Shown here: in pieces, positions 12,223 to 57,712 of the stretch
Position numbering within the stretch: position 1 is the first letter of the stretch
Layout: the number at the start of each line of letters is the position of its first letter
Source of the DNA: Gluconobacter cadivus
Lineage (GTDB): Bacteria > Pseudomonadota > Alphaproteobacteria > Acetobacterales > Acetobacteraceae
Length of the DNA stretch: 64,000 nucleotides
Direction of reading: 5' to 3'
Assembly (NCBI RefSeq): GCF_015244745.1
Contig: NZ_JABCQI010000002.1
Span: 496,001 to 560,000 of the forward strand
Notes under the pieces: model-generated
Seen by the model: only the letters and a program-made list of their open reading frames with translations
Databases searched by the model: none
Told to the model about the DNA's origin: nothing
Position numbers and translations under genes: made by a program

Positions 12223-12793
12223 GCTTGAAATCACTGACCTTGATGATGGCTCCGCCGGGGTCGGTGCGGCTGGGAACAATGGTGTGGCTCATGTGCCAGT
12301 CGGCGCTGGCCTCGGTCAACTCGGCCTGCGCCTTTTGACCTTTCAGAAACAGGCAGAACCCGTCGTCCTTCAGCCATGGCCGTGCCCAGTCGAGGAGCCT
12401 GTTGAGGGGGGCCAGCGCCCGGGCCGTGATGATGTCGGCCGGAGGGGGGCTGGCGGCTTCGATACGTTTGGCGATGACCGTGACCTTTGCGTCGCAGATG
12501 CGTCCGGCTTCCCGCAGGAAGGCACATTTGCGCTGGTCCGATTCGATCAGGGTGACCGGGTTGCCTGTGGCGATGGCCAGAATGATGCCCGGAAAACCGC
12601 CGCCCGAACCCAGATCGGTGATGGTGGCACCTTCGGGGATTAGCTCCGCAAGCTGGAGGCTGTCCTCGATATGGCGGGGCCAGAGCTGGGCGATGTCCCG
12701 CGGGCTGACGAGATTGATTTTCGCGTTCCACTGCACGAGCAGGTCGGCGAAGCGCTCCAGCCTTTCGTGTGTTTCACGTGAAACGGTGGTCAT
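12212..12793 (-). CDS. rsmG: 16S rRNA (guanine527-N7)-methyltransferase
   Basis: RsmG (GidB) methylates N7 of G527 in 16S rRNA using S-adenosylmethionine. The 193-residue protein has the expected N terminus ([19 protein letters not shown]) and the SAM-binding motif [17 protein letters not shown], followed by [15 protein letters not shown]. Its ATG overlaps the mnmG stop as ATGA, and its 3' end overlaps parA. A parS-type site lies inside its first codons (12770-12785), encoding part of VSRET. Confidence 0.95.
12770..12785. promoter_or_regulatory. parS-type centromere site 1 (in rsmG)
   Basis: TGTTTCACGTGAAACG matches the parS consensus TGTTTCACGTGAAACA at 15 of 16 positions. It lies within the first codons of rsmG, about 1.4 kb from parB, and is the closest site to parAB. 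Confidence 0.88.
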
Positions 12794-14646
12794 GACAGGG
12801 TCCTTACATGGGCCAGCAGGGCGACCAGCGCGGCAGGTGTGACCCCGCGCACGCGCTGTGCTGCGGCGAAACTGGTCGGGCGGGCCTGGGAAAAACGCTC
12901 GCGCATTTCGCTGCTCAGGCCGCCGATGGCAGTGTAATCCAGATCGGCCGGAAGGGCGATGGCACTTTCCGATGAGAGCTGTCGAATTTCACGATCCTGC
13001 CGGTGAAGATAGCCGCCATAGCGGGCTTCGGTCTCGACATGACGGCGCACACGCAGAGGAAGTTCGGCGAACCATGGGGCCAGCGCGTTCAGGATCGTGT
13101 GGTCGCCGTTACTGGCAAGGACGTCCAGAACCGTGCGCCGACGACCATCCAGAGAGACTTCGAAACCGACATCGCGGAGGGCCTGCGGCAGGAAGGTTGT
13201 TCCGGCTGCGCGGGCCATGGCGGCGTCGAGTTCGGCTTTCTGGGCGGTGAAAGCGGCTTCGCGTTCGGACAGGACGCAGCCTGCGGCGATTCCTTTGGGC
13301 GTCAGGCGTAGGTCGGCATTATCCGCGCGCAGGGTGAGACGATACTCGGCGCGGGATGTGAACATGCGATAGGGTTCGCTGATGCCGTGCAGCGTCAGGT
13401 CGTCGATCATGACGCCGAGATAGGCGTCACTGCGATCCAGCGTGAGGGCCTCGTTTCCAGCCGTGGCGCGGGCGGCGTTCAAGCCTGCGAGGAGGCCTTG
13501 TGCGCCGGCTTCTTCGTAGCCGGTCGTGCCGTTGATCTGTCCGGCCAGATACAGGCCCGGCAGGCGACGCAGTTGCAGGGACGGCAGAAGCTCTCGCGGG
13601 TCCACGTAATCATATTCGACGGCATAGCCTGCCGTGACGATGCGGGCGTTTTCCAGACCGGGCATGGTGGCGATCATGGCGGCCTGCACGTCGGCGGGCA
13701 GGCTGGTGCTGATGCCGTTGGGATAGACCAGATCGCCGCCCGGATTGCCGGGCAGGGCTTCGGGTTCGAGAAAGACCTGATGCGAGCTGCGATCGGCGAA
13801 GCGGACGACCTTGTCCTCGATGGACGGGCAGTAGCGCGGGCCGCGTCCGGCGATCGCGCCGCCATACATGGCCGAACGGTGCAGGTTCTCGGTGATGATC
13901 CTGTGGGTCTCGGCGGTGGTCTGGGTGATGCGGCAGACGACCTGCGGGTTGGTGATGGCCGTCGTCATGGGGCTGAAGGCCTCGGGCTCGGCATCGCCCG
14001 GATCGGCCGGGAGGTTTTCCCAGTCGATGCTGTCTTTGGCTAGACGTGGCGGTGTGCCGGTCTTGAGGCGGCCCATCTGGAGGCCGAGCGCATAAAGCCG
14101 TTCGCCCAGACGCTTGGCCGGAGCCTCGCCGATGCGTCCGGCCTCCGTTTGGGTGTGGCCGACATGGATGACGCCGCGCAGGAAGGTTCCGGCGGTCAGG
14201 ACAACTGCGCCGCAACGGAACTCGCGACCGTCTTCGCAGATGACGCCGGTGATGCGGCCGTTCTCTTCGATCAGGTCTCCGACTGCGCCTTCACGGATCG
14301 TCAGATTGGGGGTGGCGGCGAGCAGATCCTGAATGGCGGCGCGATAGAGCGAACGGTCGGCCTGTGCGCGGGGGCCGTGAACGGCCGGCCCTTTGGAGCG
14401 GTTGAGCAGTTTGAAGTGGATGCCTGCGCGGTCTGCGGCTTTGCCCATCAGGCCGTCGAGCGCGTCGATTTCGCGCACAAGATGGCCTTTGCCGATCCCG
14501 CCGATGGCGGGGTTGCAGGACATAGCGCCGATCGTTTCCAGCCGATGGGTGAGCAGCAGGGTGCGCGCGCCGAAACGGGCCGATGCCGCTGCGGCTTCAC
14601 ATCCGGCATGACCGCCGCCGATCACGATGACGTCGAAATCGCTCAC
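12790..14646 (-). CDS. mnmG: tRNA uridine-5-carboxymethylaminomethyl(34) synthesis enzyme MnmG
   Basis: MnmG (GidA) works with MnmE to build the cmnm5U34 modification of tRNA wobble uridines, using FAD, NADH, methylene-tetrahydrofolate and glycine. The 618-residue length is standard. The FAD motif [17 protein letters not shown] is at 11-27, and the [23 protein letters not shown] block is intact, as are the [14 protein letters not shown] and [17 protein letters not shown] blocks. It starts three bases after mnmE and overlaps rsmG by four. Confidence 0.97.
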
Positions 14647-14649
14647 AAC

Positions 14650-15954
14650 CTACTTCCCGATACAGAACTGCCCGAAAATCGCATCGAGCAGGGATTCAAC
14701 ATCAACACGTCCGGTCAGACGCCCCAGAGCCAGCATGGACAGCCGGAGTTCTTCGCCCCGCAGTTCCGGCCATGTCGCGGTCCGGGCGTGGTCCAGATGG
14801 GTTGCGGCCTCCTGGATTCCGGCACGGTGTCTGGCGCGGGTCAGAGGAGGCGCGGCTAAACCGGCCATGAGTTCGGACAACCGTTCGGACAGAACCTGAC
14901 GCAGCGCATCAAGCCCTTCGCCGGACTGCGTGCTGATCCCTAACATGCCGGGCGGGGCTGGTGCGATGTCGATTTTCGTCCGGATGGGGATTTCCTGTCC
15001 GGAGAGGGTCTCAAGGCTCTCATCCGGGCCGATCAGATGCAGTACGACATCCGCCTGTTTCACGTGAAACAATGCGCGGCGGATGCCTTCGGCTTCGATT
15101 TCGTCTTCCGTCTCCCGCAGGCCCGCCGTGTCGATCAGACGAAGGCGGACACCGTCCAGAATCCAGTCGAGTGCGATGGCATCGCGGGTCGTGCCTGCAC
15201 GATGGGTGACGATTGCCGCATCTGTTCCGGATAACGCATTGAGAAGGCTGGACTTTCCGACGTTCGGCGAGCCTGCGATCACGACGGTCAGGCCCTGACG
15301 CAGGAGTTCGCCGCGATTGTCCTGAAGATGGGCGGACATTTCGGTGTGGAGTTTTGAGAGTTCCTCGATCAGTCCGTCTTCCACGTCCTGAGGGAGGTCT
15401 TCGTCCGGGAAGTCAATCAGGGCTTCCTGATGGGCGAGGACGAGGCGAAGGCGCTGAGCCCAGTCGTCGTACAGGCGGCTCAGGGCGCCATCGGCCTGAC
15501 GCAGGGCCTGTTTGCGCTGGCTTTCAGTTTCAGAATCCACGAGGTCGGCGATGGCTTCGGCCTGAAGCAGGTCCAGCCGTCCTTTCTGGACGGCGCGCCG
15601 GGTGAACTCGCCCGGTTCGGCAGGGCGGGCGCCCAGATCGGTCAGGGCGTCGGCGACGCGGGCGATGATGGCAGGACCGGCGTGGAGGTGCAGCTCGAAG
15701 CCGTCTTCGCCGGTGTAGGAGTTTGGGCCGGGGAGCCAGAGAGCGACGGCATGGTCGAGCACCTCTGCGTTATGGCGCAGGGTTCGCAGGCTGGCGCGGC
15801 GTGGTTCGGGGAGATGCCCGTTGCATAGCGCGCGCAGGATCGTATCGCTGCCGGGGCCGCTGGCGCGCATGATCGCGATGGCGGCGCGGGAGGGGCCGGT
15901 TGCCAGTGCGAAAATGACCTGCGGGGTGTGGTCCGGGAGGGAGGAGCGCGTCAT
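14650..15954 (-). CDS. mnmE: tRNA modification GTPase MnmE
   Basis: MnmE (TrmE) is the GTPase partner of MnmG in wobble-uridine modification. The 434-residue product has the N-terminal folate-binding domain ([20 protein letters not shown]). A helical domain holds an inserted G domain with G1 GSPNVGKS at 228-235, the GTTRD G2 block and [10 protein letters not shown]. The C-terminal CIGK at 431-434 is intact. A perfect parS 16-mer lies inside the coding sequence. In many alphaproteobacteria rho sits directly beside mnmE; here adhAB and ogt lie between them. Confidence 0.96.
15056..15071. promoter_or_regulatory. parS site 2 (in mnmE)
   Basis: TGTTTCACGTGAAACA is an exact 16 of 16 match to the parS consensus, within the MnmE G-domain coding region (it encodes part of LFHVKQA). 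About 4 kb from parB. Confidence 0.93.
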
Positions 15955-16024
15955 GGGGTTCTATGTAGTGCAGGAGGCCCCGTGGTGAAAATGGTTAGCT
16001 TGCAATGATGGGCGTGCGAGCATG

Positions 16025-16059
16025 AAAAAAGGGCGGATCGTTTCCGATCCGCCCTTTTG
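16025..16059 (-). terminator. Intrinsic terminator between adhB and mnmE
   Basis: AAAAGGGCGGATCG and CGATCCGCCCTTTT form a 14-bp perfect stem with loop TTTC. Read on the minus strand it follows the adhB stop (16087) and ends in a T-run, terminating the adhAB message before mnmE. The symmetric A and T tracts would also work in the other direction. Confidence 0.93.
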
Positions 16060-16086
16060 TTCAGACTGTCAGGGAGTGGGGAACGC

Positions 16087-17523
16087 TTACTGTGCGTTGT
16101 CCACGCCCGTGTGGGTCTGCGGAGAGAAGGTCCAGCCTTCGCCGTAAGGCTGCGGCATATAGGCCATCCAGCCCCTGCTGGAGACGTTCCAGCCAGCCGT
16201 GGAGACCGGTGCTCCCGTCGTACGCAGCTTCTGCATATCGGCAGCGGATACGGTTCCCGGTGCCTTGTTGCCCCAGCCCTTGCGCATGAAGTTCACGACA
16301 TCGGCCATCTGCTGGTCGGTGAGGTGGTTCTTGAAGCCGGGCATGGCGATGGCGGACGGTGCCGTGTTGGTCGGGGGCAGGATGCCGCCGAAGGCCACGA
16401 CATTGGCGAGCGACGTCGGATCATCCGTCAGGACAACCGGGTTGCCAGCCAGCGGCGGGAACATGCGGTTGACGCCCGTACCGTCGTTCATGTGGCAGAG
16501 GGCGCAGTTGTGCAGATAGACTTCCGCACCGGCGTTGCCCTGAGCACCCTTGTCCAGCAGGGCGGTCGTCTGACCGTCATCCTGGCCGAGGTTATTGCCC
16601 TCCGGAACGGCCGGCATGCTCTTCAGGTACTTGGCCGTGGCGCGCAGGTCGTCGTCTGTCCAATGCTGCGTGCTGTAGGCCACCACGTCGGCCATGCCAC
16701 CGAAGACGGCGGAGTGGTCGATACGGCCGCTCTTGAGGAAGGTGACGATGTCATCTTCAGACCAGCGACCCAGGCCTGTGTCGCTGTTGCTGCGCAGGCT
16801 CGGGGCGATCCAGTTGTCGATCGGTGCACCGCCGGACAGATAGACGTTGCCGCCGCTCGTTCCATAAGCCTTGAGCTGCATTGCGAAGCCGCGGGGTGTA
16901 TGACATTCGCCGCAATGGCCCGGACCGTCGACGAGGTATTCGCCGCGTGCGACTTCCGGATCACTGATGCTCTTGTCTTCGCCCGGCGTCATGCTCGGAA
17001 CGAACATGGCGCGCCACACTGCCAGCGGCCAGCGCATGGAGAGCGGCCAGCTGATGTCCGGTGCCTTGTTGGCAAGGGCGACCGGCTTCACGCCATGCAT
17101 GAAGTAGGCATACATCGAGCGGATGTCGTCGTCCGACAGACGCGCGAATTCAGGATAGGGCATTGCCGGGTAAAGCGTTGCACCATCCTTGCGGATGCCC
17201 TTGCGGATGGCCTTCGTGAAGTCCTCAAGGGTGTAGCTGCCGATCCCGTGTTCCGGGTCCGGCGTGATGTTGGTCGAATAGATCGTGCCGATCGGGCTCT
17301 TGATTTCCAGACCGCCCGCATAGGGCTGTCCGTGCAGAGCCGTATGGCAGGCGATGCAGTCTGACAGGCGGGCGACATATTCGCCACGCTTGATCAGGGC
17401 TTCATCAGCGTCCTGGGCATGGGCGGCGCCGAACGACACCGCCATGAGGCCGATTGCGGCCGCGAATTTCCATCCCTGTTTCATCTCAGATACCAGCCTG
17501 TCGCGAATTGATGCATTGAGCAT
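16087..17523 (-). CDS. adhB: Alcohol dehydrogenase cytochrome c subunit (quinohaemoprotein ADH subunit II)
   Basis: AdhB is the triheme cytochrome c subunit that takes electrons from AdhA and passes them to ubiquinone at the periplasmic face of the inner membrane. The 478-residue protein has three CxxCH heme sites at 56-60 (CIACH), 204-208 (CGECH) and 340-344 (CALCH). A signal peptide ends near FGAAHAQ (residue 37). The sequence is very like the Gluconobacter oxydans subunit as I remember it. It lies 34 bp after adhA on the same strand and is followed by a strong terminator. The small subunit III (adhS) is not present here. Confidence 0.96.
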   Translation of the reverse strand: MLNASIRDRLVSEMKQGWKFAAAIGLMAVSFGAAHAQDADEALIKRGEYVARLSDCIACHTALHGQPYAGGLEIKSPIGTIYSTNITPDPEHGIGSYTLEDFTKAIRKGIRKDGATLYPAMPYPEFARLSDDDIRSMYAYFMHGVKPVALANKAPDISWPLSMRWPLAVWRAMFVPSMTPGEDKSISDPEVARGEYLVDGPGHCGECHTPRGFAMQLKAYGTSGGNVYLSGGAPIDNWIAPSLRSNSDTGLGRWSEDDIVTFLKSGRIDHSAVFGGMADVVAYSTQHWTDDDLRATAKYLKSMPAVPEGNNLGQDDGQTTALLDKGAQGNAGAEVYLHNCALCHMNDGTGVNRMFPPLAGNPVVLTDDPTSLANVVAFGGILPPTNTAPSAIAMPGFKNHLTDQQMADVVNFMRKGWGNKAPGTVSAADMQKLRTTGAPVSTAGWNVSSRGWMAYMPQPYGEGWTFSPQTHTGVDNAQ

Positions 17524-17557
17524 GTCACGTGCCTCCTTTTACCGTAACGGTCGCCCG

Positions 17558-19831: not shown

Positions 19832-20295
19832 GATCCAACTGTCCTTTTTGTAAAGACTGTTTCCGCTGTGATATTCTGGACCTATGCAGTCTTGAAAGGG
19901 GCAGGGGAAAATCCTGTCCTCTCAATCCAACGATCAGTACCAGACACCGCCAGCATGAGAACTTACTGACCCTATTTTATTGTTTAAGACAAACACGGCT
20001 TCTGACGTTTCCGTGAGGGATGGGGCAGGATGATCCTGAAACGGGCTATGATGTGGCTCAGGGAATGATTACACAGGCGTTCCGGATAACGTCCTGTCGC
20101 GTTTCTGATACAAAAAAGGGCAGTTTTCCAACACATTACAGAGTATTGCTGGAAAGCCTACTGAAGCGGTACAATATGTTTATTTTGCATATTGAGGCTA
20201 AGCGATATGCGTAAATCGCATGGCTAAAAAGCATCGGTCTCAATGGCAACACTGCCGGATTGACGGTTTTGAGCCGCTCGGGCACCGTGTCGTTC
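19832..20295. other. Intergenic region between divergent adhA and ogt
   Basis: This 464-base region separates the divergent adhA and ogt genes and must contain at least the strong adhA promoter. It is less GC-rich than its neighbours. I see no convincing operator palindrome, small RNA or conserved ORF; a 64-codon open frame at 20020-20214 has no family features. The exact promoter could not be placed by eye. Confidence 0.5.
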
Positions 20296-20742
20296 ATGCC
20301 ACAGCTATCCTGCCACTCACCTTTCGGGGCCCTTACCATCAGTGAAGATGAGGGCCAGATCGTCGCTCTGGACTGGGGTTGGGGGCGCGATCAGGAGGAG
20401 ACTCCACTTCTTCTGAAGGCCCGCGATCTTTTGGAGCGCTATTTTGATGGGGAATCGGTCGATTTCGACACGTTGCCCTATCGTCCTTACGGGACTCCAT
20501 ACCGCCAGAAGGTCTGGGACGCGTTGCGCCGGATTCCTTACGGCAAGACGCGGACTTATGCGGATATCGCGGCCGAGGTCGGTGGGTCTGCGCGGTCGGT
20601 TGGCGGAGCGGTTGGAGCGAATCCGATTCCGATCTTGATCCCCTGTCACCGTGTTGTCGGTCGGGCGGGGCTTGGCGGATATTCGGGACTGGGAGGCATC
20701 GCGGACAAGCATGCCATGCTGCATCTGGAAGGTGTGCTGTAA
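20296..20742 (+). CDS. ogt: Methylated-DNA-[protein]-cysteine S-methyltransferase
   Basis: This enzyme repairs O6-methylguanine by irreversible transfer of the methyl group to its own cysteine. The 148-residue product has the active-site motif IPCHRVVG with Cys117, the RRIPYGKTRTYADIA helix-turn-helix region that inserts into the minor groove, and the ANPIPILIPCHRV block. The ATG at 20296 gives a normal Ogt N terminus; an upstream TTG at 20260 is less likely. It stands alone between adhA and rho. Confidence 0.9.
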   Translation: MPQLSCHSPFGALTISEDEGQIVALDWGWGRDQEETPLLLKARDLLERYFDGESVDFDTLPYRPYGTPYRQKVWDALRRIPYGKTRTYADIAAEVGGSARSVGGAVGANPIPILIPCHRVVGRAGLGGYSGLGGIADKHAMLHLEGVL

Positions 20743-20781
20743 CAGACAGGCTTTCCCGTCATTCCGATAGACCGGACAACA

Positions 20782-20809
20782 AAAAAGGGGAGCCGGAGCT
20801 CCCCTTTTT
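20782..20809. terminator. Bidirectional intrinsic terminator between ogt and rho
   Basis: AAAAAGGGGAGC and GCTCCCCTTTTT form a 12-bp stem with a CGGA loop. It serves the convergent ogt (plus) and rho (minus) genes, with a T-run on both strands. Confidence 0.92.
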
Positions 20810-20833
20810 CATGTCGGCCATGCTGATTCGGGA

Positions 20834-37163: not shown

Positions 37164-38218
37164 GTCTCCGAAGGCTGTTGGGTGAGAGCCAGACATTTCT
37201 TCATGACGCCGGGCAGAGCGGCGCGTTTCGTTGAACGGAACGTCCCGAAAGAGGAATCGATCCCTGCATTATGGCCCTGTGGAAGGCAAGCCTCATAGAC
37301 CGTGAGGAACAGGGTGAAATGGGTGAAGACGTGGCGGATTTCGCCTCTGTGGGTCCAGTTGGTCAGGCAGGGCGCATGGGTGAGGGCTTCGTCTTCGCTC
37401 CAGGGTGCGCTGCGCCAGTCCGTTCCGGGAAGCTCGTCCATGCCGCCCAGAAGGCCGGTGGGAGGGCGGGTTCGCAGCAGGATCTGACCGCTGGAATCGT
37501 GCAGGAGGAAATGTACGCCGTAACGGGTGGGGCGTGTCTGTTTGGGCTGTTTGGCCGGGAGTTGGGATGCGATTCCGCGGGCATGGGCGATGCAGGAGGT
37601 CTGCCAGGGGCAGGTCAGGCATGCAGGATTGCGGGGTGTGCAGATCGTTGCGCCGAGGTCGAACAGGGCCTGTGCGAAGTCGGAGGGACGGCTTTGGGCG
37701 ACAGGGTCGGCGTTCAGGAGGGCGGCCTGTTTCGCCAGAAGGGGGCGTGCAGCCGGGAGCGGTTCTTCGGTTGCGTTGAGGCGGGCCGTAACGCGCTCGA
37801 CATTGCCGTCGACGGGGACAACGGGGCGTCCAAAGGCGATGGCGGCGATGGCGCGGGCCGTGTAGGCCCCGATTCCGGGAAGGGTCAGTAACTCTGTGAC
37901 CGTGTCTGGGAAGCCGCCGCGTTCGGAGACCCGTTTCGCACAGGCATGGAGATTGCGGGCACGGGCATAGTAGCCGAGGCCAGCCCAGAGGTGCAGGACG
38001 TCTTCGAGCGGGGCCGCCGCGAGGTCCTGGACTGTAGGGTAATGCGTGAGAAAGCGCTCGTAATAGGATATGACGGCTTTGACGGTCGTCTGCTGGAGCA
38101 TGATCTCGCTCAGCCAGACGGCATACGAGTCTGGACGCTGGCCGGGCAGGCTGCGCCAGGGAAGGGCGCGGCGGTGGTGGTCGTACCAGCGCAGCAGGGC
38201 GGATGCATCAGGAGTCAC
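37160..38218 (-). CDS. mutY: A/G-specific adenine glycosylase
   Basis: MutY removes adenine mispaired with 8-oxoguanine in base excision repair. The 352-residue enzyme has the helix-hairpin-helix LPGIGAYTARAIAAIAFG near 113, catalytic Glu38 (SEIMLQQT) and Asp137 (VDGNVERV). The iron-sulphur cysteines have spacing C-x6-C-x2-C-x5-C (CTPRNPACLTCPWQTSC). A C-terminal NUDIX-like domain recognises 8-oxoG. I chose the GTG at 38218; an open frame back to 38353 runs into the divergent gene. Only ten bases separate its start from the ATG of the DUF721 gene. Confidence 0.93.
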   Translation of the reverse strand: MTPDASALLRWYDHHRRALPWRSLPGQRPDSYAVWLSEIMLQQTTVKAVISYYERFLTHYPTVQDLAAAPLEDVLHLWAGLGYYARARNLHACAKRVSERGGFPDTVTELLTLPGIGAYTARAIAAIAFGRPVVPVDGNVERVTARLNATEEPLPAARPLLAKQAALLNADPVAQSRPSDFAQALFDLGATICTPRNPACLTCPWQTSCIAHARGIASQLPAKQPKQTRPTRYGVHFLLHDSSGQILLRTRPPTGLLGGMDELPGTDWRSAPWSEDEALTHAPCLTNWTHRGEIRHVFTHFTLFLTVYEACLPQGHNAGIDSSFGTFRSTKRAALPGVMKKCLALTQQPSET

Positions 38219-38228: not shown

Positions 38229-38774
38229 ATGACGAAGGATCGCGGTTCGGACAAGCGCCCGTTGCGAAATACGGCCCGAAAGAAACCGGCGCAGGAGCCT
38301 GATGGCTGGGTGCCCGCGCCTGATCGTAACTGGACGCCGCGTCGTTCTGGCACGAAGCAGATCGGGTCTTTCGTTCAGGCGCTGACGCAGCCTGTCTTCA
38401 AGAAGAAGCCGCCGGTTCTGGCACGCCTGATGATGGACTGGGCGGATTTCGTCGGCCCGCGTCTGTCCAAACAGACCGAACCGCGCCGTTTGTCGGCGGG
38501 AACGCTGACGCTGGCCTGTGCGGGGCCGATTGCCATGGAGCTTCAGCATCTGGCGCCGCAGATCATTGAGCGCATCAATGTGGCCTGTGGGCTGCGGGGC
38601 GAGTATGGGATCGAGCGTCTGAAGATTGTTCAGGATCTGGTGGCGTTCGAGCGACCGACGCCGAAGCGTCCGAAACCGTTGCAGATCGAAGTGCTGGATA
38701 TCGAGGACGAGGAGCTTCGTCTGGCGCTGGAAAGCCTTGGGGGGCATCTGGGCGCGAAGCGGAAGCGAAGGTGA
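38229..38774 (+). CDS. DUF721/DciA family protein
   Basis: This 181-residue protein belongs to the DUF721 (DciA) family, whose members help load the replicative helicase DnaB in bacteria lacking DnaC. The conserved core is FVQALTQPVFKKKPPVLARLMMDWADFVGPRLSKQTEPRRLSAGTLTLACAGPIAMELQHLAPQIIERINVACG, given here by position about 45-120. A basic N terminus and a Lys/Arg-rich C terminus flank it. Divergence from mutY is a recurring alphaproteobacterial arrangement. A perfect parS site begins seven bases after its stop. Confidence 0.75.
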   Translation: MTKDRGSDKRPLRNTARKKPAQEPDGWVPAPDRNWTPRRSGTKQIGSFVQALTQPVFKKKPPVLARLMMDWADFVGPRLSKQTEPRRLSAGTLTLACAGPIAMELQHLAPQIIERINVACGLRGEYGIERLKIVQDLVAFERPTPKRPKPLQIEVLDIEDEELRLALESLGGHLGAKRKRR

Positions 38775-38780
38775 CGGAAG

Positions 38781-38796
38781 TGTTTCACGTGAAACA
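38781..38796. promoter_or_regulatory. parS site 3 (between DUF721 and Gly-rich gene)
   Basis: TGTTTCACGTGAAACA is a 16 of 16 match to consensus. It is the only perfect site lying between genes, just after the DUF721/DciA gene and 27 kb from parAB. Confidence 0.93.
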
Positions 38797-38887
38797 AGTT
38801 GTTTCGTCATGGAAAGGCCCTCTTCCTACACGATCTGGTAATGCCGATATGGAAAACATGATCGGGCTTTCCCGCAGGAGACTTGCC

Positions 38888-39505
38888 ATGACCCTCACAT
38901 ATAGACCGGCCGCTGCACTAATGCTGGCCTTGCTGGCGTCCACGATTTCCGTTCCCGCTTTTGCCCAGCATGGGGGGGGACCGGGCGGAGGCGGTGGATT
39001 TCATGGCGGCGGAGGCCCCGGTGGGGGCTTTCACGGTGGTGGTATGGGCGGGGGGATGAGGCCCGTCGGCATGGGAGGTGGCTTTCATGGTCCGGGCGGA
39101 GGTGGGTTCCGCCCTCCCGGAGGTGGATATCATGGAGGTTGGGGCGGCGGTGGCTATGGCGGTGGCCGTCCCGGCTGGGGGTTCCGTGGTGGCGGCTGGG
39201 GCGGAGGCTGGGGTGGGCCGCGCTTTGGCGGCTGGGGCTATCCGGGTTGGGGTGGCTGGAACGGTTGGGGTGGACCCGGCTGGTTCGGCTATGGCTGGGG
39301 GATGCCGGGTTGGGGCGGCGGCTGGGGCTGGGGCGGCTGGGGCCTTGGTGTCGGACTTGGCGTTGCGACCGGCATGGCGATCGAGGCTTCGCCTTATGGC
39401 TATGGTGGTGGGTACGGCGGATACGGATATGCGCCGGGTTATGCTCCTGGTTATTACGCCGCGCCGTCCTATTCGGGTGTGCCGCCTTACACCTGGGGAT
39501 ACTGA
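38888..39505 (+). CDS. Gly/Trp-rich low-complexity secreted protein
   Basis: This 205-residue product has a signal peptide (ending PAFAQ-H), after which almost the whole chain is glycine with Trp, Phe, Tyr, His and Pro in irregular GGG, GWGG, GGGFHGGG and GYGGYGY runs. A short hydrophobic stretch, VGLGVATGMAIEASP, interrupts it. AGGAG lies eight bases before the ATG at 38888. Such proteins are usually cell-surface or periplasmic; no enzymatic domain is present. Frequent in acetic acid bacteria by my recollection, but the function is unknown. Confidence 0.65.
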   Translation: MTLTYRPAAALMLALLASTISVPAFAQHGGGPGGGGGFHGGGGPGGGFHGGGMGGGMRPVGMGGGFHGPGGGGFRPPGGGYHGGWGGGGYGGGRPGWGFRGGGWGGGWGGPRFGGWGYPGWGGWNGWGGPGWFGYGWGMPGWGGGWGWGGWGLGVGLGVATGMAIEASPYGYGGGYGGYGYAPGYAPGYYAAPSYSGVPPYTWGY

Positions 39506-45688: not shown

Positions 45689-45695
45689 ACTGATG

Positions 45696-47471: not shown

Positions 47472-47474
47472 TGT

Positions 47475-47777: not shown

Positions 47778-47870
47778 GGAGGTCTCCTTTGTGCATTTAA
47801 GGTCTCGGGACACAACGCAGGAGCGATCGTAACGATTGCGGAGTTTTTCGGAAACTGGCAGGATTGGGGT

Positions 47871-48038
47871 GACCGACACGGGAGAGACCGGCCGAGAGGC
47901 TGGCGCCGAAGGAGCAACCGCCCCGGAAACTCTCAGGCCAAAGGACCGAGTCGGTCAGGACATTCTGGAGAGAGGTGCGCTTGACGCATCCGCCGACGGG
48001 ATAGCGATCTCAGGCGAAAGGACAGAAGGGGCGACGTT
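47871..48038 (+). ncRNA. Tandem glycine riboswitch
   Basis: Two glycine aptamers stand in tandem upstream of gcvT. The first (about 47871-47957) has the signature GGGAGAG, CCGAAGGAGCAA and CCGGAAACTCTCAGGCCAAA. The second (about 47965-48038) has GGAGAGAGGTGCGC, GCCGACGGG and ATCTCAGGCGAAAGGACAGA. Cooperative glycine binding normally switches on the gcv operon. The expression platform extends to the gcvT start at 48117. Confidence 0.95.
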
Positions 48039-48116
48039 TTTCCGGCCGCGTTCTGCGGAGTGCCGGGGGCGTCTGCATCTTCACGTCTTTAGAGAGAATG
48101 GACCGGGCTTTTTCGT

Positions 48117-49250: not shown

Positions 49251-49286
49251 ACTTACAGTAGACTTTCAGATCAGGAAAAAGCAGCA

Positions 49287-49646
49287 ATGACGACCTATTA
49301 CACGAAGTCCCATGAATGGATCCGCGTCGATGGCGATCAGGCCACTGTTGGCATCACGACGCATGCCTCTGAAGAGCTGGGCGAACTGGTGTTCGTTGAA
49401 GCCAAGGACGAGGGCACGGAAGTTGCTGCCGGTGATGCGGCCGCGGTTGTCGAATCCGTGAAGGCGGCCTCCGACATCTATGCACCGGTGGCGGGTACGC
49501 TGGCGGGCTTCAACGAAGCGCTGTCCGATGATCCGACGCTGGTGGGCCGCGATGCGGAAGGCGAGGGCTGGATCTTCCGCATGACGGTTTCCAACCCGGA
49601 CGACCTCAAGGGCCTACTGACGGCCGAGCAGTACAAGAGCCTCTGA
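49287..49646 (+). CDS. gcvH: Glycine cleavage system H protein
   Basis: GcvH carries the lipoyl arm that shuttles the aminomethyl group between the P and T proteins. The 119-residue protein has the family start [20 protein letters not shown] and the lipoylated Lys59 in [14 protein letters not shown], and ends in the usual [15 protein letters not shown]. Spacing to gcvT is 36 bases. A terminator-like hairpin follows before gcvP. Confidence 0.97.
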
Positions 49647-49651
49647 GGCTC

Positions 49652-49682
49652 GCGGGGTCTGCGCTGGCAGGCCCCGTTTTTC
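49652..49682 (+). terminator. Intrinsic terminator or attenuator between gcvH and gcvP
   Basis: GGGGTCTGC (49654-49662) pairs with GCAGGCCCC (49667-49675), one G-T wobble, four-base loop, followed by GTTTTTCTTTC. It lies six bases after gcvH, so gcvP expression may be lowered or driven separately. Confidence 0.75.
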
Positions 49683-49722
49683 TTTCAGCCTGTCCCAAAT
49701 TCCTGCCTCCGCTTTTCATGAA

Positions 49723-52578
49723 ATGCCAGAGAACCTGCCTGTGACGACCTTGTGGCCTGCCCAGACCGAAGATTTCAGCTCCCGCCATATCGGCCCGCGT
49801 CCTTCCGAAATCGGGGAGATGCTGCGGGTCGTTGGCGCGTCCAGTCTCGATGACCTGATCGACCGGACCATTCCGGCCGCCATTCTCGATCGCGGGGATC
49901 ACGGGATTGGTGCGGCCCTGACCGAGCAGGATGCGCTGGCGCGTCTGCGTCAGATTGCGTCGCGCAATCAGGTTCTGACCTCCATGATCGGCCAAGGTTA
50001 TTACGATACGGTTCTGCCGCCGGTCATCCAGCGGAACATTCTCGAAAATCCGGCCTGGTACACGGCCTATACGCCGTATCAGCCTGAAATCAGCCAGGGC
50101 CGCCTTGAGGCGCTGCTGAACTTTCAGACGCTGGTGGCGGATCTGACGGGGCTGGATATCGCCAATGCGTCCCTGCTGGACGAGGGCACGGCCTGTGCGG
50201 AAGCCATGGCGCTGGCGCAGCGTGTGGGCAAGTCGAAAGCAACGGCGTTCTTCGTGGATGCCGACACGCATCCGCAGACAGTTGCTGTGATCCGCACGCG
50301 GGCCGAGCCGCTGGGCTGGGATATTGTCGTGGGTGATCCGGAGACGGATCTGGATGCGTCCTCCGTGTTTGGTGCGCTGCTGTCCTATCCGGGCTCTTCG
50401 GGGCAGGTGCGGGATCTGCGCGGCGTGATTGCGGCGCTGCATGAGAAGGGTGCGATTGCGGCTCTGGCCTGTGATCCGCTGGCGCTCGTGGTGCTGGAAA
50501 GTCCGGGCGCGCTGGGCGCGGATATCGCGATCGGCTCGATGCAGCGTTATGGCGTGCCGATGGGGGCTGGTGGCCCGCATGCGGGGTTCATGGCGACGCG
50601 CGATGCGTTCAAGCGGCATATGCCGGGGCGTCTGGTTGGCGTGTCGCGCGACAGTGCGGGCAAGCCCGCCTATCGTCTGGCGCTTCAGACGCGCGAACAG
50701 CATATCCGCCGCGAGAAGGCCACATCCAACATCTGCACGGCGCAGGCGCTTCTGGCGATCATCGCGTCCATGTATGCGGTGTATCATGGTCCGGAAGGGC
50801 TGAAGGCGATTGCCGCACGCACGCACCGGATGGCGTCGATCCTGTCTGCCGGGCTGAAAGCTCTGGGCGCGAATGTTGAGACGGACGTGTTCTTCGACAC
50901 CATCACCGTTCAGGTTGGTGCTTCTGCGCCGCAGGTTCTGGCGCGGGCCGTGGCGTCCGGCATCAATCTGCGCGATGCGGGGAATGGCCGGATTGGTGTG
51001 TCCTGTGACGAGACCACGGCGCCGGAAACGATCCGTGCGGTCTGGGCGGCGTTTGCGGGTGAGGGTGCGGATCTGGCGTCTGTCGAGCAGGCGCTTTCGG
51101 TGACGGATGCGCTACCGGAGGGCCTGTCCCGGACGGCGCCGCTGCTGACGCATCCTGTGTTCCATGCGCATCGTTCCGAGACGGATCTGCTGCGCTACAT
51201 GCGCGCGCTGGCGGATAAGGATCTGGCGCTGGATCGGACGATGATCCCGCTGGGCTCCTGCACGATGAAGCTCAATGCGACGGCTGAGATGATCCCCATC
51301 ACCTGGCCGGAATTTTCGCGGATTCATCCGTTCGCGCCCGCCGATCAGGTTCAGGGTTATGCCGAGCTGTTCACGTATCTGGAGCGCACGCTCTGTGCGA
51401 TTTCGGGGTATGACGCCGTGTCGCTTCAGCCGAATTCCGGCGCGCAGGGGGAGTATGCCGGGCTTCTGGCGATCCGGGGTTATCACCGGGCGCGTGGGGA
51501 TGAGAACCGCGACGTCTGCCTGATTCCGGCGTCCGCACATGGGACCAATCCGGCTTCGGCGCAGATGGTCGGAATGCGGGTTGTCGTTGTGGCCTGCGAT
51601 GCGAATGGCAATGTCGATGTCGAGGATCTGAAGGCGAAGATCGCGCAGCATGACGGGCGCGTGGCGGCCATCATGATTACGTATCCGTCCACGCATGGCG
51701 TGTTCGAGGAGCGGATCGTCGAGATCTGCGAGCTTGTCCACGAAGCGGGCGGGCAGGTCTATCTGGATGGCGCGAACCTTAATGCGCAGGTTGGTCTGGC
51801 GCGTCCGGGGCTGTATGGCGCGGATGTGTCGCACTTCAACCTGCACAAGACGTTCTGCATTCCGCATGGCGGCGGCGGGCCGGGCATGGGGCCGATCGGT
51901 GTGGGCAAGCATCTGGCACCCTATCTGCCGGGGCAGCATGGTATTGCGGTGTCCGCGGCACCTTACGGCTCCGCGTCTATTCTGCCGATCTCCGCTGCTT
52001 ACATCATGATGATGGGCGACGAGGGACTGCGTCAGGCGACGACGATGGCGATCCTGAATGCGAACTACATCGCGTCGCGTCTGGAAGGGCATTATCCGGT
52101 TCTGTATCGCGGCACGAACGGCTTTACGGCGCATGAATGCATCGTTGATCTGCGGCCGCTGAAGGATACGGTCGGTGTAACGGTGGACGATATCGCCAAG
52201 CGTCTGATCGACCACGGGTTCCATGCGCCGACGGTCAGCTTCCCGGTAGCGGGGACGTTCATGATCGAGCCGACGGAATCTGAAGGGAAGGGTGAACTGG
52301 ATCGCTTCTGCGATGCGATGATCGCCATTCGCGCGGAGATTGCCGAAATTGAAGCCGGGCGTGTGGCGATGGAGGCCAGCCCGCTGCGGTTTGCGCCGCA
52401 TACCACGGCGGATCTGGCTGGCGCGTGGGACCGTTCCTACAGCCGCGAGGCGGGGTGTTTCCCCCGCGGTGTGGACACGTCGAAATACTGGTCGCCGGTC
52501 GGGCGTCTGGATAATGCCTGGGGGGACCGGAACCTCGTCTGTTCCTGCCCGGATATTTCGACCTACGCTGAAGGCTAA
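49723..52578 (+). CDS. gcvP: Glycine dehydrogenase (glycine cleavage P protein)
   Basis: GcvP decarboxylates glycine with pyridoxal phosphate and loads the aminomethyl group onto GcvH. The 951-residue single-chain form combines both halves that are separate in some bacteria. The start [21 protein letters not shown] and the PLP lysine Lys709 in [18 protein letters not shown] are present. A glycine-rich loop follows, along with the C-terminal substrate-binding [16 protein letters not shown]. It is the last gene of the gcv operon. Confidence 0.97.
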
Positions 52579-52602
52579 ACAGCTTTTTTAGTTTGGTATT
52601 TA

Positions 52603-52637
52603 GGAAAAGGCGTCTTCCTTTGGGAAGGCGCCTTTCT
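52603..52637 (+). terminator. Terminator after gcvP
   Basis: AAAAGGCGTCTTCC and GGAAGGCGCCTTT form an 11-bp stem with one mismatch and a TTTG loop, ending in TTTCT. It closes the gcv operon. Confidence 0.8.
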
Positions 52638-52700
52638 GCTGTCCGAGCTCTTTTGTTGTGATACCCGGCATGGGTTCTTTCTCACAAAACTGTGCGGTAT

Positions 52701-52716
52701 GGTTTCACGTGAAACA
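52701..52716. promoter_or_regulatory. parS-type site 4 (leader of ABM gene 2)
   Basis: GGTTTCACGTGAAACA matches consensus at 15 of 16 positions. It lies in the gap between gcvP and the ABM gene, 60 bases upstream of that gene's start. Confidence 0.85.
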
Positions 52717-52776
52717 CTGCCCGTCTGCGGAAAGGTCGCGGCCGGGCAGTTGCCATTGTTGATGAGGAATTTCCCC

Positions 52777-53088
52777 ATGAGTCAGACGGTTCACATCACG
52801 GCTGTTGTGACGGTCGCAGCGGACCACGCGGCGGCGGCAGAACATGCTTTTGCGGCCTGTATCGTGTCTTCGCGCAAGGAAGAAGCCTGCCGTCAGTATG
52901 TGGTCAGCAAGGATATCGAAAAGACTGGCCGGCTTGTGGTTTCCGAAGTCTGGACTTCGGAAACCGGGTTCGAGGCGCATCTGGCGTCACCGCATTTCAA
53001 GGCTCTGGGTGAGGCACTTGGAAAACTGGATGCGCAGCTCGACATCATGAAAGTCCGGCCACTGGATGAGGCTGCGGACGCGGTCTGA
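52777..53088 (+). CDS. Antibiotic biosynthesis monooxygenase (ABM)-domain protein 2
   Basis: This 103-residue ABM-fold protein resembles the one at 47475: VHITAVVTVAADHAAAAEHAF opens the first strand-helix unit, and SETGFEAHLASPHFKALGEALGKL contains the shared HLxSPHF signature. The function is unknown. The ATG at 52777 has GAGGAAT upstream; a longer reading from 52699 would place parS site 4 within the coding region. The two ABM genes flank the gcv operon. Confidence 0.8.
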   Translation: MSQTVHITAVVTVAADHAAAAEHAFAACIVSSRKEEACRQYVVSKDIEKTGRLVVSEVWTSETGFEAHLASPHFKALGEALGKLDAQLDIMKVRPLDEAADAV

Positions 53089-53176
53089 AAAAGCGGTTTT
53101 CATTTCTGTGGGAATATGCCCCATTTCGGGGATCGACTGCTTTGCGGAGCAGCCTTTAAAGACAGGAGAGTCTCTG

Positions 53177-53389
53177 ATGGTTTCGATGGTGACGTTCAAG
53201 GTTGACGGGATGTCGTGCAACGGATGTTCGGGCAAGTTGCAGTCTGCCCTGTCCAATGTTCCGGGTGTGTCGTCGGCAGAAGTAACGCTCGATCCGGGGC
53301 AGGCTGCCATTCAGTACGATGAGCAGAAAGTGACGCCGGTGGCGTTGCAGCATGTTGTCGAAGATGTTGGTTTCGACGTTATCGCCTGA
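53177..53389 (+). CDS. Heavy-metal-associated (HMA) domain protein, copper-chaperone-like
   Basis: This 70-residue single-domain protein has the metal-binding motif GMSCNGC near residues 11-17 and the ferredoxin-like fold expected of CopZ/Atx1 chaperones. It probably carries Cu(I) in the cytoplasm. AGGAG precedes the ATG at 53177. No copper ATPase or regulator is adjacent, so its partner is elsewhere. Its end lies 24 bases from the convergent UPF0126 gene. Confidence 0.88.
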   Translation: MVSMVTFKVDGMSCNGCSGKLQSALSNVPGVSSAEVTLDPGQAAIQYDEQKVTPVALQHVVEDVGFDVIA

Positions 53390-53413
53390 GAGGCGTTTGA
53401 ACGCACCTGCCGC

Positions 53414-54043
53414 CTATCGTTTGTAATGCGGCAGGCCGAGTCCTTTGATGAGGGCTACGGCGCGCAGGCTGAAGCCAGCCACGACGGAAATTGCGGCCGC
53501 AAAGCTTGTATTGAGGCCCAGCGCCGTCAGGGAGACATAGCTTCCTGACGCCAGCGCGACGGCTGTGACGTAAAGTTCCGGTCGGATGATGATGGACGGC
53601 ACGCCTGCCAGGATATCCCGGAAAATACCGCCCATGCAGGCGCTGACAATTCCCATGAGAGCCGCCGGGATCAACGGAATGCCGTAGGCCAGCGCCTTGG
53701 CTGAGCCAAAGACGCCATAGGCTGCGATTCCAAGTCCGTCGAACCATTCCACCGCGAGGGCTGGCCAGAAGCGTGCGGGGGTGAACCAGACGGCGATTGC
53801 TGAAAGCAGGCAGGCGGCAATGGGGACGGAAGCGTGCATCCAGAAGACGGGTGCGCCGATCAGCAGGTCCCGCACCGTTCCGCCGCCAACGCCCGTGATG
53901 GCAGCAAAGAACATGAATGTTACGATGGTCAGGCGCGCGCGGGCGGCCTCAATGGCACCCGAAATCGCGAAGACGATTGTGCCTGCGATGTCGAGGACAG
54001 GCAGGGCGGACGAGGAAAAGGTTTCAAGGGCGGGAGGAATCAT
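53414..54043 (-). CDS. UPF0126 (TRIC-like) membrane protein
   Basis: This 209-residue protein has seven hydrophobic segments and the two glycine-rich repeat motifs GVGGGTVRDLL (about residue 50) and CMGGIFRDILAG (about residue 137) of the UPF0126/YicG family. That family is related to trimeric intracellular cation channels. It is probably an inner-membrane ion channel or transporter. It follows glnA with a terminator between. Confidence 0.88.
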   Translation of the reverse strand: MIPPALETFSSSALPVLDIAGTIVFAISGAIEAARARLTIVTFMFFAAITGVGGGTVRDLLIGAPVFWMHASVPIAACLLSAIAVWFTPARFWPALAVEWFDGLGIAAYGVFGSAKALAYGIPLIPAALMGIVSACMGGIFRDILAGVPSIIIRPELYVTAVALASGSYVSLTALGLNTSFAAAISVVAGFSLRAVALIKGLGLPHYKR

Positions 54044-54069
54044 CGGGCTGTCTTGGAGGGGGAATACAG

Positions 54070-54097
54070 AAAAGCCCGGCGTGAAGGCCGGGCTTTC
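54070..54097 (-). terminator. Intrinsic terminator after glnA
   Basis: AAAGCCCGGC and GCCGGGCTTT form a 10-bp stem around GTGAAG. On the minus strand it ends in TTTTCTG and lies 26 bases after glnA. Confidence 0.9.
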
Positions 54098-54122
54098 CGT
54101 TAAAGCGATGTTGTGACCCGGA

Positions 54123-55655
54123 TCAGACCGAGTAGTACATCTCGAACTCTACCGGATGCGGCGTGTGTTCGAACTTGTAGACTTCCGGCCACTTGATGTC
54201 GATGTAGCTTTCGATCTGGTCCTTGGTGAAGACGCCGCCTTCGAGAAGGAATGCGTGGTCTTCCTGAAGGGCTTCGAGCGCTTCACGGAGCGAACCGCAG
54301 ACCGTCGGGATCTGGGCCAGTTCTTCCTTCGGCAGTTCGTACAGATCCTTGTCCATGGCGTCGCCCGGGTGGATCTTGTTACGGATGCCGTCGAGGCCGG
54401 CCATCAGCATTGCGGCAAAGGCGAGATACGGGTTTGCCATCGGGTCCGGGAAGCGGACTTCGACGCGCTTGGCCTTCGGGTTGGTTGCGTGCGGGATACG
54501 ACACGAAGCCGAACGGTTCGCGGCGGAGTAGGCCAGAAGCACGGGCGCTTCGAAGCCCGGGATCAGGCGCTTGTAGGAGTTGGTGGACGGGTTCGTAAAG
54601 GCGTTCAGGGCCTTCGCGTGCTTGATGATGCCACCGATGTAGAACAGCGCGTCTTCGGACAGGTCTGCATACTTGTCACCGGCGAAGGTCGGCTTGCCGT
54701 CCTTCCAGATGGATTGGTGAACATGCATGCCCGAGCCGTTATCGCCCGAGATCGGCTTCGGCATGAACGTGGCCGTCTTGCCGTAGGAATGAGCGACGTT
54801 GTGCACGCAGTACTTGTAGATCTGCATGAAGTCTGCGGACTTCACGAGCGTGTCGAACTTCGTGCCGAGTTCGTGCTGCGACTGTGCGACTTCGTGGTGA
54901 TGCTTTTCGATCGGCAGGCCCATTTCGCCCATCGTCGAGAGCATTTCGGCGCGCAGGTCATGCTCGCTGTCCACGGGCGGGACCGGGAAGTAGCCACCCT
55001 TGACGACAGGGCGGTGACCCATGTTGCCTTCCGGATATGCCTTCAGGGATGCGCCGGGGCCTTCGATGCTGTCGAGCTGATACGTGCCGAAATTCGGGCC
55101 TGTGCCGAACTGCACGTTGTCGAAGATGAAGAACTCGGCTTCCGGGCCGAAGAATGCCGTGTCACCGAAGCCAGCCGACTTAAGGTAGGCTTCTGCGAGC
55201 TTGGCGGTCGAGCGCGGATCCCGGTTGTAGAAATTGCCCGTCTTCGGATCAATGATGTCGCAGAACAGGATCAGCTGCGGCTTGGCCGAGAACGGGTCCA
55301 TGACGGCCGTTTCCGGGTCCGGCAGCAGGACCATGTCGGACTCGTTGATGGCTTTCCAGCCCTGGATGGACGAGCCGTCGAACATGAAACCTTCGACGAA
55401 GGTGTCGTCTTCGATGGTCGAGACCGTCTGGGTTGTGTGGTGCCACTTGCCCTTGGGGTCCGTGAAGCGCAGATCGACGAATTCCGCCGCGTGCTCCTGG
55501 ATCATCTCGAAGACGCGGGCTACGGCCAGCGGGTTCGGAGCGGGCGGCTTGCCGGACGCTGCCGGAGCAGTTTTGGGCGCTGCGGCCTTTGCGGGACGGC
55601 GCGCCGGAGCGGCCTTCGGTTTCACGGTAGAGGAAGTGGGGGCTTTCTTGGCCAT
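54123..55655 (-). CDS. glnA: Glutamine synthetase type I, with a basic Ala/Pro-rich N-terminal extension
   Basis: GlnA combines glutamate and ammonia using ATP. The 510-residue protein has the [10 protein letters not shown] loop, the [12 protein letters not shown] metal-binding block, [10 protein letters not shown], and the adenylylation site Tyr439 in DKDLYELP, so activity is probably regulated by adenylylation. About 42 extra residues precede the normal N terminus, a [22 protein letters not shown]-like run rich in Lys, Ala and Pro. The ATG at 55655 has AAGGCGACAG upstream. Unlike many alphaproteobacteria, no glnB gene adjoins it. Confidence 0.95.
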
Positions 55656-55848
55656 CGATCTGTCGCCTTGCATCGTGTAAACGGCTGCAAAACGATTAAG
55701 CGACAAATGCCCGTCTGTCGAGTATGGGAAATTACGCCATTCTGCGGATTTGAGGTAGAATCTTGCGGAAGCGGATCAAAGCTTTCCACGTCTGGTCCGA
55801 AACTTGCATGCAAAGAGGGCAGCAAGACTCTTTTTGGGAAATATCCTC

Positions 55849-56475
55849 ATGACCCGTGCTGCCGAATCTCTGGATGGCTGGAAAGACAGTGATCTGCTGT
55901 CTCTGCCGGTTGAACGTTATCTGCATGAATTTCGTGGTGGGCTGCTGAGCCTGCCCGAGAGCGAGCGCGATCTGATTGTTTCAGAAGTGCGGGCGCAGGT
56001 TGCAGCGCAGGCGCGGTTGGGCGATGGGGCCGTACAGGCGCTTTTGGAAAAGCTGGGAAAGCCGGACAGGCTCGCTGCACGCTTTACGATCCGGCATGAG
56101 CTGTCGGTCGGGGTGCAGCAGTCCAATCCGTTTGCTCTGCTTTGGGTTCTGCTGCGACTGGCTGCTGGAAGCCTTCTGGCTTTCACGGGTGGCCTTGTTG
56201 TCATTGTGTTCGGTCTGACGGGGCTTCTGCTCACGGCGATGCCTGTGTTGCGGTTTTTTGTTCCGCAGGACGTGTTCGTCAGGAATGACGGCCTGTTTAC
56301 GATTACGGTTACGACAGGTGATGCACCGAAAAATGCCATCCCCCTTTCATGGGAAGCGGCCGTTGTTTCCTGTGGTGTCGGCATTGTTCTGATCGTGTTG
56401 GCGATGCTTCTGATGCGAGGGCTGGGGCAGATCCTGCTGCGCGATATGCGTCGGAAAACACGGATGCGGGATTGA
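55849..56475 (+). CDS. HAAS/DUF1700-like membrane protein
   Basis: This 208-residue protein has an N-terminal helical segment (VERYLHEFRGGLLSLPESERDLIVSEVRAQVAAQARLGDGAVQALLEKLGKPDRLAARF, about 17-75) of the HAAS/DUF1700 signalling type, with the recurring LGKPDxLA motif. Two or three transmembrane helices follow, at about 85-125 and 165-190. Members are often found with PadR regulators, but none is present. The ATG at 55849 was chosen as the first with a plausible ribosome-binding site (GGGAA); function is unknown. Confidence 0.7.
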   Translation: MTRAAESLDGWKDSDLLSLPVERYLHEFRGGLLSLPESERDLIVSEVRAQVAAQARLGDGAVQALLEKLGKPDRLAARFTIRHELSVGVQQSNPFALLWVLLRLAAGSLLAFTGGLVVIVFGLTGLLLTAMPVLRFFVPQDVFVRNDGLFTITVTTGDAPKNAIPLSWEAAVVSCGVGIVLIVLAMLLMRGLGQILLRDMRRKTRMRD

Positions 56476-56548
56476 AAGGCTTTTCAGTCCGGCGTTGGCC
56501 TGCAATGGTGAGGCGCTTTGTGTTTTTCGTGTGCTCTGGACCTCATCA

Positions 56549-57712
56549 ATGAAAACTCCGAATCAGTATCTTGCGGGTCTTCCGACGACCATTTTCACGA
56601 TCATGTCCCAGCTTGCCGTGAAGCACGGAGCGATCAATCTGGGGCAGGGGTTCCCGGATACGGAGGGGCCGCAGGATATTATTCAGGTGGCTGCGGAGGC
56701 GCTCCAGGACGGGCGTAACCAGTATGCGCCGCTGACGGGACTGCCTGAGCTGCGCGACGCTGTGGCGTCTTCCAACCGGCGTTTCTATGGGCTGGAGGTT
56801 GATCCGGCGACGGAAGTGGTTGTGACATCCGGGGCGACCGAAGCGCTGGCGGCTTGCCTCATGGCGGTGGTGGAGCCGGGGGATGAGGTGGTGGTGATCG
56901 AGCCGCTTTATGACACCTATCTGCCAGCACTCAGGCTTCTGGGAGCCGTTCCGCGTTGTGTGCGGCTCCAGCCGCCGCACTGGTCGCTGCCGGAAGCGGA
57001 ACTTCGGGCGGCGTTTGGGCCGAAGACAAAGGCGATCATGCTTAACTCGCCGATGAATCCGTCAGGGAAGGTTTTTGTCCGCGAGGAGCTTGAACTGATT
57101 GCGGATCTGGTGCGGGAGCATGATGCGTATGCGATCTGCGACGAGGTTTATGAGCACCTGACGTTTCACGTGAAACACATGCCTCTGATGACGCTGCCGG
57201 GAATGCGTGAGCGGTGCATGCGGATCGGAAGTGCGGGCAAGAGTTTTTCCCTGACGGGATGGAAAGTCGGCTATGTGACCGCACCGGCCTCCTTGGCATC
57301 GGTGGTGGCCAAGGCGCATCAGGTTCTGGTGTTCGCGACCGCGCCGAACCTTCAGCGGGCCGTGGCTTATGGATTGAACAAGGACGAGAGCTATTATCAG
57401 GCTCTGTCGGCTCAGATGGAAACGCAGCGGGATCTGTTGCGGGACGGTCTGCATCGTCTGGGCTTTGAGACGTTGCCCGCCGATGGGAGCTATTTCATCG
57501 TGGCAGATATCTCGCGTCATGCGGATGGGCGGAGCGATGTGGACTTCGCACGCTGGCTGGTTGAGCATGCAGGAGTCGCGACGATCCCGGTTTCAGCCTT
57601 CTATGACCCTGAGGGGGATGCTCCGCCGCAGAACCTGATCCGGTTCGCATTCTGCAAAAAGCCCGAGATCCTGTCTGAAGCCTTGAAACGGCTGCAAAAA
57701 GCCCTTTCTTAA
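56549..57712 (+). CDS. Aminotransferase class I/II (methionine/kynurenine type)
   Basis: This 387-residue fold-type I aminotransferase has NLGQGFPDTEGP near the N terminus, the phosphate-binding TSGATEALAACL, NSPMNPSGKV, and the Schiff-base lysine Lys231 in SAGKSFSLTGWKVGY. The pattern resembles YbdL/kynurenine-oxoglutarate aminotransferases that use methionine and aromatic amino acids. The exact substrate is not certain. A parS-type site lies in its coding sequence. Confidence 0.87.
   Translation: MKTPNQYLAGLPTTIFTIMSQLAVKHGAINLGQGFPDTEGPQDIIQVAAEALQDGRNQYAPLTGLPELRDAVASSNRRFYGLEVDPATEVVVTSGATEALAACLMAVVEPGDEVVVIEPLYDTYLPALRLLGAVPRCVRLQPPHWSLPEAELRAAFGPKTKAIMLNSPMNPSGKVFVREELELIADLVREHDAYAICDEVYEHLTFHVKHMPLMTLPGMRERCMRIGSAGKSFSLTGWKVGYVTAPASLASVVAKAHQVLVFATAPNLQRAVAYGLNKDESYYQALSAQMETQRDLLRDGLHRLGFETLPADGSYFIVADISRHADGRSDVDFARWLVEHAGVATIPVSAFYDPEGDAPPQNLIRFAFCKKPEILSEALKRLQKALS
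57162..57177. promoter_or_regulatory. parS-type site 5 (in aminotransferase gene)
   Basis: CGTTTCACGTGAAACA matches consensus at 15 of 16 positions and encodes part of TFHVKH in the aminotransferase. About 45 kb from parB, it is the most distant site in the window. Confidence 0.85.

Follow-up and report, generated by a model that had tools for sequence, protein, structure and literature searches.

A very probable chromosomal centromere in Gluconobacter, with parS-type sites that appear to have shaped the codons of the genes holding them

A 64,000-nucleotide stretch of the draft genome of Gluconobacter cadivus (contig C2, positions 496001-560000; hereafter the window) carries five copies of one palindrome beside the genes parA and parB, some between genes and others within the coding sequences of unrelated enzymes. 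This raises the question of what the palindromes are, and of what their presence has meant for the genes they occupy. ParABS systems, in which the partition proteins ParA and ParB act on centromeric parS sites, are textbook knowledge, and a motif that is unique and clustered, parAB adjoining it and a ParB of the parS type together point to an ordinary example. We consider it very probable that these palindromes make up the parS set, or chromosomal centromere, on which a ParABS system of Gluconobacter (Acetobacteraceae) acts. Several of those inside genes appear to have determined which codons are used there and, to some extent, which amino acids are encoded.

The 14-mer GTTTCACGTGAAAC occurs exactly five times in the window (Table 1), and the 16-mer TGTTTCACGTGAAACA, which we take to be the parS consensus in agreement with its occurrence in published papers, is matched in full at 15057 and 38782, the remaining three sites differing from it by one end base. 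An initial annotation of the window had listed five palindromic 16-mers, with the same division into two full and three partial matches, and had judged the set to be beyond chance. All five are present (its coordinates being the starts of the 16-mers), and the judgement is borne out by the numbers: 0.21 matches with up to two mismatches are expected in the window, where the highest count in 100 shuffles was three, and under a uniform model only 0.012 exact copies are expected in the whole genome (3,288,808 bases in 32 contigs). A search of this genome returned the same five exact copies and one copy with a single mismatch at C2:574119, and the reversed control pattern gave no matches. In the 206 kb around the window, allowing two mismatches added one place (C2:472836, two mismatches; 0.66 expected). 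The motif is thus not spread evenly round the chromosome, a distribution that the initial annotation had named as fatal to its proposal of a broad centromere; that proposal holds by position, with all exact sites lying within 44.4 kb, or 65 kb once the sixth site is counted. Besides the consensus, the natural site variants are GTTTCACATGAAAC, GTTTCACGTGAAGC and GTTCCACGTGAAAC. The set is unique in the genome, lies on one side of the origin locus, and in a sample of 26 genomes of the genus, many of them drafts, is largely conserved in place, as seen for the sites in mnmE, in the aminotransferase gene and beside dciA (Table 1).

The left-hand sites adjoin the partition genes, as the initial annotation had noted. 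The gene order there is parB, parA, rsmG, mnmG and mnmE, all on the minus strand, with rho further on. ParB aligns with the Caulobacter ParB structure 6t1f (E 2e-65), and its specificity residues were placed by counting along this alignment (Caulobacter numbering). In the accessible text of Jalal et al. (PMC7383237), R173 and G201 are described as absolutely conserved in ParB orthologues and as Q and R in Noc, and positions 179 and 184 as variable among ParBs. The protein encoded here has both R173 and G201, and therefore should read parS. A Noc model also matches it, below the curated cut-off (210 versus 315 bits), but the Noc residues Q173, K179, K184 and R201 were not found, R, T, N and G standing in their places; NBS sites were not searched for. 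Noc with its NBS sites, as presented in the accessible part of PMC7383237, is a sister family that differs from the ParB described here at 173 and 201, and the sites of the window are parS, not NBS.

Clustering near the replication origin was also found, with the origin itself placed to within about 22 kb. The gene hemE (C2:486141-487154) is divergent from maf, a neighbourhood that we take to be an oriC marker in alphaproteobacteria, and 21.6 kb separate the hemE start from the first parS, on its right. The statement of the initial annotation that oriC is near is upheld in this sense, with hemE and maf lying outside the window. In three relatives (G005, G012 and G013) the sign of the GC skew changes within about 4 kb of hemE. 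In the genome of the window the switch is instead near C2:464 kb, and all six sites, the five exact ones and the sixth, are found to the same side of either origin candidate, 22-87 kb from hemE. The gene dnaA could not serve as an origin marker, being on another contig (C4), and a search for consensus DnaA boxes gave one-mismatch boxes only: two downstream of the hemE start in the stretch fetched from G012 and, in G005, three in the 120 or so bases upstream of hemE.

Several observations weigh against the centromere reading or its details. The skew switch in the genome of the window is about 22 kb beyond hemE and 45 kb left of the first site, that of G007 (C3 140000-155000) is 21-36 kb beyond hemE (118083), and G058, also sampled, is nearly without skew. 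The displaced switches in the first two genomes could reflect a moved origin or a local rearrangement, and the exact place of the origin is therefore uncertain. Just one DnaA-box-like 9-mer, with one mismatch, lies beside hemE in the genome of the window. Among nine relatives compared, hemE and the nearest site (in G012, the mnmE gene) are separated by as little as 12 kb (G005) and as much as 61 kb (G001, G012), and G005 has an extra exact site at C1:861267 (L051), across hemE. This extra site lies about 106 kb on the other side of hemE from the remaining G005 sites, in DNA with no open frame longer than 120 codons. The exact aminotransferase site is missing from 5 of the 26 genus genomes and the dciA site from four, so single sites are dispensable. 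Finally, position 184 of ParB is N instead of A, a position reported as variable among ParBs in the accessible text of PMC7383237.

Table 1. Partition genes, host genes and exact parS-type sites of the window (window coordinates)
Feature	Position	Strand	Remarks
parB	10537..11412	-	R-T-N-G at places of Caulobacter R173 T179 A184 G201
parA	11419..12279	-	Walker-type partition ATPase, KGGVGKTTT; annotated start uncertain
rsmG (gidB), host of parS 1	12212..12793	-	TIGR00138, 134.6 bits vs cut-off 99.5
parS 1	12771..12784		In rsmG codons 4-8, VSRET on - strand; same reading in 14/14 genus relatives fetched
mnmG (gidA)	12790..14646	-	TIGR00136
mnmE (trmE), host of parS 2	14650..15954	-	NF003661
parS 2	15057..15070		In mnmE, FHVK residues 296-299 on - strand; exact in 26/26 genus genomes
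parS 3	38782..38795		Intergenic, 7 bases past dciA stop codon; exact in 22/26 genus loci
parS 4	52702..52715		Between gcvP and ABM-domain (antibiotic biosynthesis monooxygenase) protein gene, probably intergenic
PLP-dependent aminotransferase, host of parS 5	56495..57712	+	True start probably downstream
parS 5	57163..57176		In PLP aminotransferase, FHVK on + strand; exact in 21/26 genus genomes

Because the site is palindromic, both strands give the same two open readings: GTT TCA CGT GAA AC is read as VSRET and TTT CAC GTG AAA as FHVK, while the third frame contains the stop codon TGA. The initial annotation had assigned FHVK to three sites, and this is firm at only two of them, mnmE and the aminotransferase gene. 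The third case, an open reading frame at 38771-39505, was rejected: in the 22 genus loci that hold parS 3, the site starts 10, 13, 14, 16, 23 or (in one genome) 84 bases past the end of the dciA match. A VSRET reading in the frame at 38208, antisense to dciA, was likewise rejected, that frame not being conserved. Since its frame shifts among relatives, parS 3 is best taken as intergenic. Most of the loci for parS 1 and parS 4 were picked by the coordinates of matches already known, so that their counts are not unbiased surveys. With this limit, parS 4 is readable as VSRET in the genome of the window, but the frame is not open for 60 codons in 8 of the 12 relatives fetched, and the site is therefore probably intergenic as well. 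Five of the 12 genomes fetched (L267-L270, L276), from two separate parts of the tree, have GTTTCACATGAAAC at this place, in which the central CACGTG is changed to CACATG. Upstream of the glycine-cleavage genes (gcvP, 49723-52578), tandem glycine riboswitch aptamers are found at 47869-48035. Far to the left, at 1032-2654, is an open reading frame of 540 aa in AT-rich DNA (third-position GC 0.23) that has no Pfam match and may have been horizontally acquired.

The sixth site, GTTTCACGTGAAGC, has one mismatch and lies 14 kb past the right end of the window, at C2:574119-574132 (window position 78119; L006:1501-1514), in a gene with a family-2 glycosyltransferase domain, where it is read as VSREA. 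Its codons GTT TCA CGT GAA are identical in 21 of 24 orthologue rows from the genus, the other three having other synonymous codons or a different residue; in the two further genus genomes, the gene is split into two parts in one and was not matched in the other. Membership of the parS set is the most likely explanation. That it is instead a former parS now in decay, or a functionless match due to chance, we regard as rather unlikely, although the alternative carries some weight: the mismatch breaks the palindrome, the three rows that lack the site all belong to a deep branch, and weak binding is reported for putative sites 1 and 6 of Caulobacter (PMC5815017, section 17). Against decay, the 21 rows that keep the codons diverge elsewhere, with pairwise DNA identity as low as 53%, and the site retains the half GTGAAAC; the half GTGAAA is conserved among the Caulobacter sites according to the legend to Figure 3 of PMC5815017.

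A codon test bears both on the sixth site and on the question of what has been selected. Every ungapped four-codon segment of each gene was ranked by the number of rows with identical codons, all fetched rows being kept. The site segment came first in each case: in mnmE with 26/26 rows (rank 1 of 421), in the aminotransferase gene with 21/26 rows (rank 1 of 386, two overlapping segments tied), and in the glycosyltransferase gene with 21/24 rows (rank 1 of 696, two tied), the last result again speaking against a decaying sixth site. Comparison segments with residues at least as widely conserved had medians of only 7, 8 and 7 identical rows, respectively, and the longest stretch without variation in the mnmE gene alignment is TGTTTCACGTGAAACA. 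Rare codons are among those used by the sites, with TCA making up 5% of Ser, ACA 11% of Thr, GTT 18% of Val and TTT 21% of Phe codons in ten genes of the window. The top ranking of the site segments for codon identity argues that the DNA has been selected and not only the protein. On this comparative evidence the sites in mnmE and the aminotransferase gene are held at the DNA level, and protein constraint alone, as gauged by the same alignments, fails to account for the codon conservation and the rare codons.

It is accordingly very improbable that the tetrapeptide FHVK and the reading VSRET are the selected features and the palindrome a by-product of protein constraint. One observation does favor such a constraint, in that the aminotransferase site is broken in 5 of the 26 genus genomes by the common change TTT to TTC and the FHVK residues stay. 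However, the frame shifts at two of the five sites, which are best regarded as intergenic; a single 14-base sequence yields FHVK in one frame and VSRET in another; codons are kept, not residues alone; and other genera carry different residues at the corresponding loop of the aminotransferase. Equally hard to credit is the suggestion that a transcription factor uses the palindromes, with their E-box-like CACGTG core, as its operators, for although two sites lie in spacers near gene starts, three are inside genes, the set clusters beside parAB and nowhere else in the genome, ParB is of the parS type and the sequence is that of the presumed parS consensus.

If the sites are a centromere, its history can be followed among relatives. 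Exact sites number 3-6 per genome in the 26 genus genomes and 0-4 in 34 other genomes of the family, seven of which have none. In five genomes from other genera of the family (L028, L029, L031, L035, L036), two exact parS lie 37-49 bases apart, compared with single sites in the genus. At the cut-off used, the aminotransferase was matched in 62 of 80 family genomes searched. The 30 loci fetched include 28 from other genera, none of which has the exact site. Where the genus has FHVKH, the 20 other-genus aminotransferases read in the right frame have FDGWKH, FGVPH, FDVRH and similar sequences (the residue comparison leaves out eight aminotransferase rows and one mnmE row of the 56 from other genera, and parS presence was scored on the DNA of all). 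The surroundings of this gene also differ: in six other-genus genomes with the aminotransferase gene and mnmE on one contig (G030, G040, G042, G058, G122, G124) the two are at least 135 kb apart, versus 11-44 kb in eight genus genomes compared.

Changes at single sites were placed on a tree built from mnmE only, by a quick method and with the site masked; it has long branches and many open forks, and it counts changes but cannot tell gain from loss. The dciA and glycosyltransferase sites each require one change, at the split of a deep clade of four genomes from the other 22 (for the glycosyltransferase site, three deep-clade and 21 other genomes were scored). The aminotransferase site requires at least three changes, most simply by loss.

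The site in mnmE reaches beyond the genus. It is present, exact and at the same codons, in 10 of 28 other-genus loci, while in G054 an exact site lies 37 residues further on and is read as VSRET, and in Caulobacter vibrioides a site that differs by one end base is shifted by 15 residues in the same direction and is read as FHVK. Three lineages thus carry parS in mnmE, each at a place of its own, and the simplest reading is that these sites arose independently. A protein pattern for MnmE gave 594 hits but no confirmed relative. A DNA pattern search for parS in mnmE, selected for an FHVKQAD context, gave at least 117 matching stretches, 80 of which were listed as loci; among the 80 listed, 44 are inside an MnmE match and 36 are not. 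The 44 comprise one locus of Caulobacter vibrioides and 43 in genera that we assign to the acetic acid bacteria. The MnmE of the window is 85-95% identical to that of seven Gluconobacter among the listed loci (94.7% for G. roseus), 77-79% to that of two Neokomagataea, and about 56-68% to that of other acetic acid bacteria.

Much of this arrangement has precedents. In the accessible sections of PMC5815017, Caulobacter crescentus has a ParB of the same type, parS inside genes, and a parS cluster near the origin on one arm of the chromosome, and some of its sites have one conserved half, as does the sixth site here. The five strongest Caulobacter sites occupy no more than 5 kb at a distance of about 8 kb from ori (section 17 of the same source), whereas the five exact sites described here span 44 kb, starting 21.6 kb from hemE. 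The spread is similar to that of the Spo0J-parS system of Bacillus subtilis, whose strong origin-proximal sites are separated by about 5, 13 and 39 kb according to the same text. Among open-licence papers, no study was found that deals with parS in Acetobacter or Gluconobacter or with an influence of parS on codons, and a word search of the accessible text of the ParB review PMC7022226 for sites within genes gave no match. Against this background, the present analysis adds the list of candidate sites for the lineage, the conserved sixth site, and the comparative evidence of a centromere writing the codons and residues of its host genes.

By homology, each palindrome would serve as a loading place for ParB dimers, which would close into a clamp with CTP and slide onto the neighboring DNA, and ParA, encoded alongside, would pull the ParB-coated origin region towards the daughter cell halves; SMC may also load at the sites. 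Over the history of the group, point changes in genes and spacers close to parAB would have enlarged the cluster; the price would have been a change of codons and, for the aminotransferase, a change of residues too. More generally, we think it reasonably probable, if well short of assured, that the centromere grows by births of new parS in ordinary genes near parAB and then overrides protein constraint, turning a loop of the aminotransferase into FHVK, imposing rare codons on the glycosyltransferase for the sake of a half-degenerate site, and occupying three codon places in mnmE. This appears to be a clear instance in which unrelated enzymes owe some of their codons and residues to a DNA site that serves segregation. 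If true, it would show how bacterial centromeres expand and would give this expansion a datable history of gain and loss, for which the genus offers a natural series of site numbers, with changes at single sites placed on a provisional tree.

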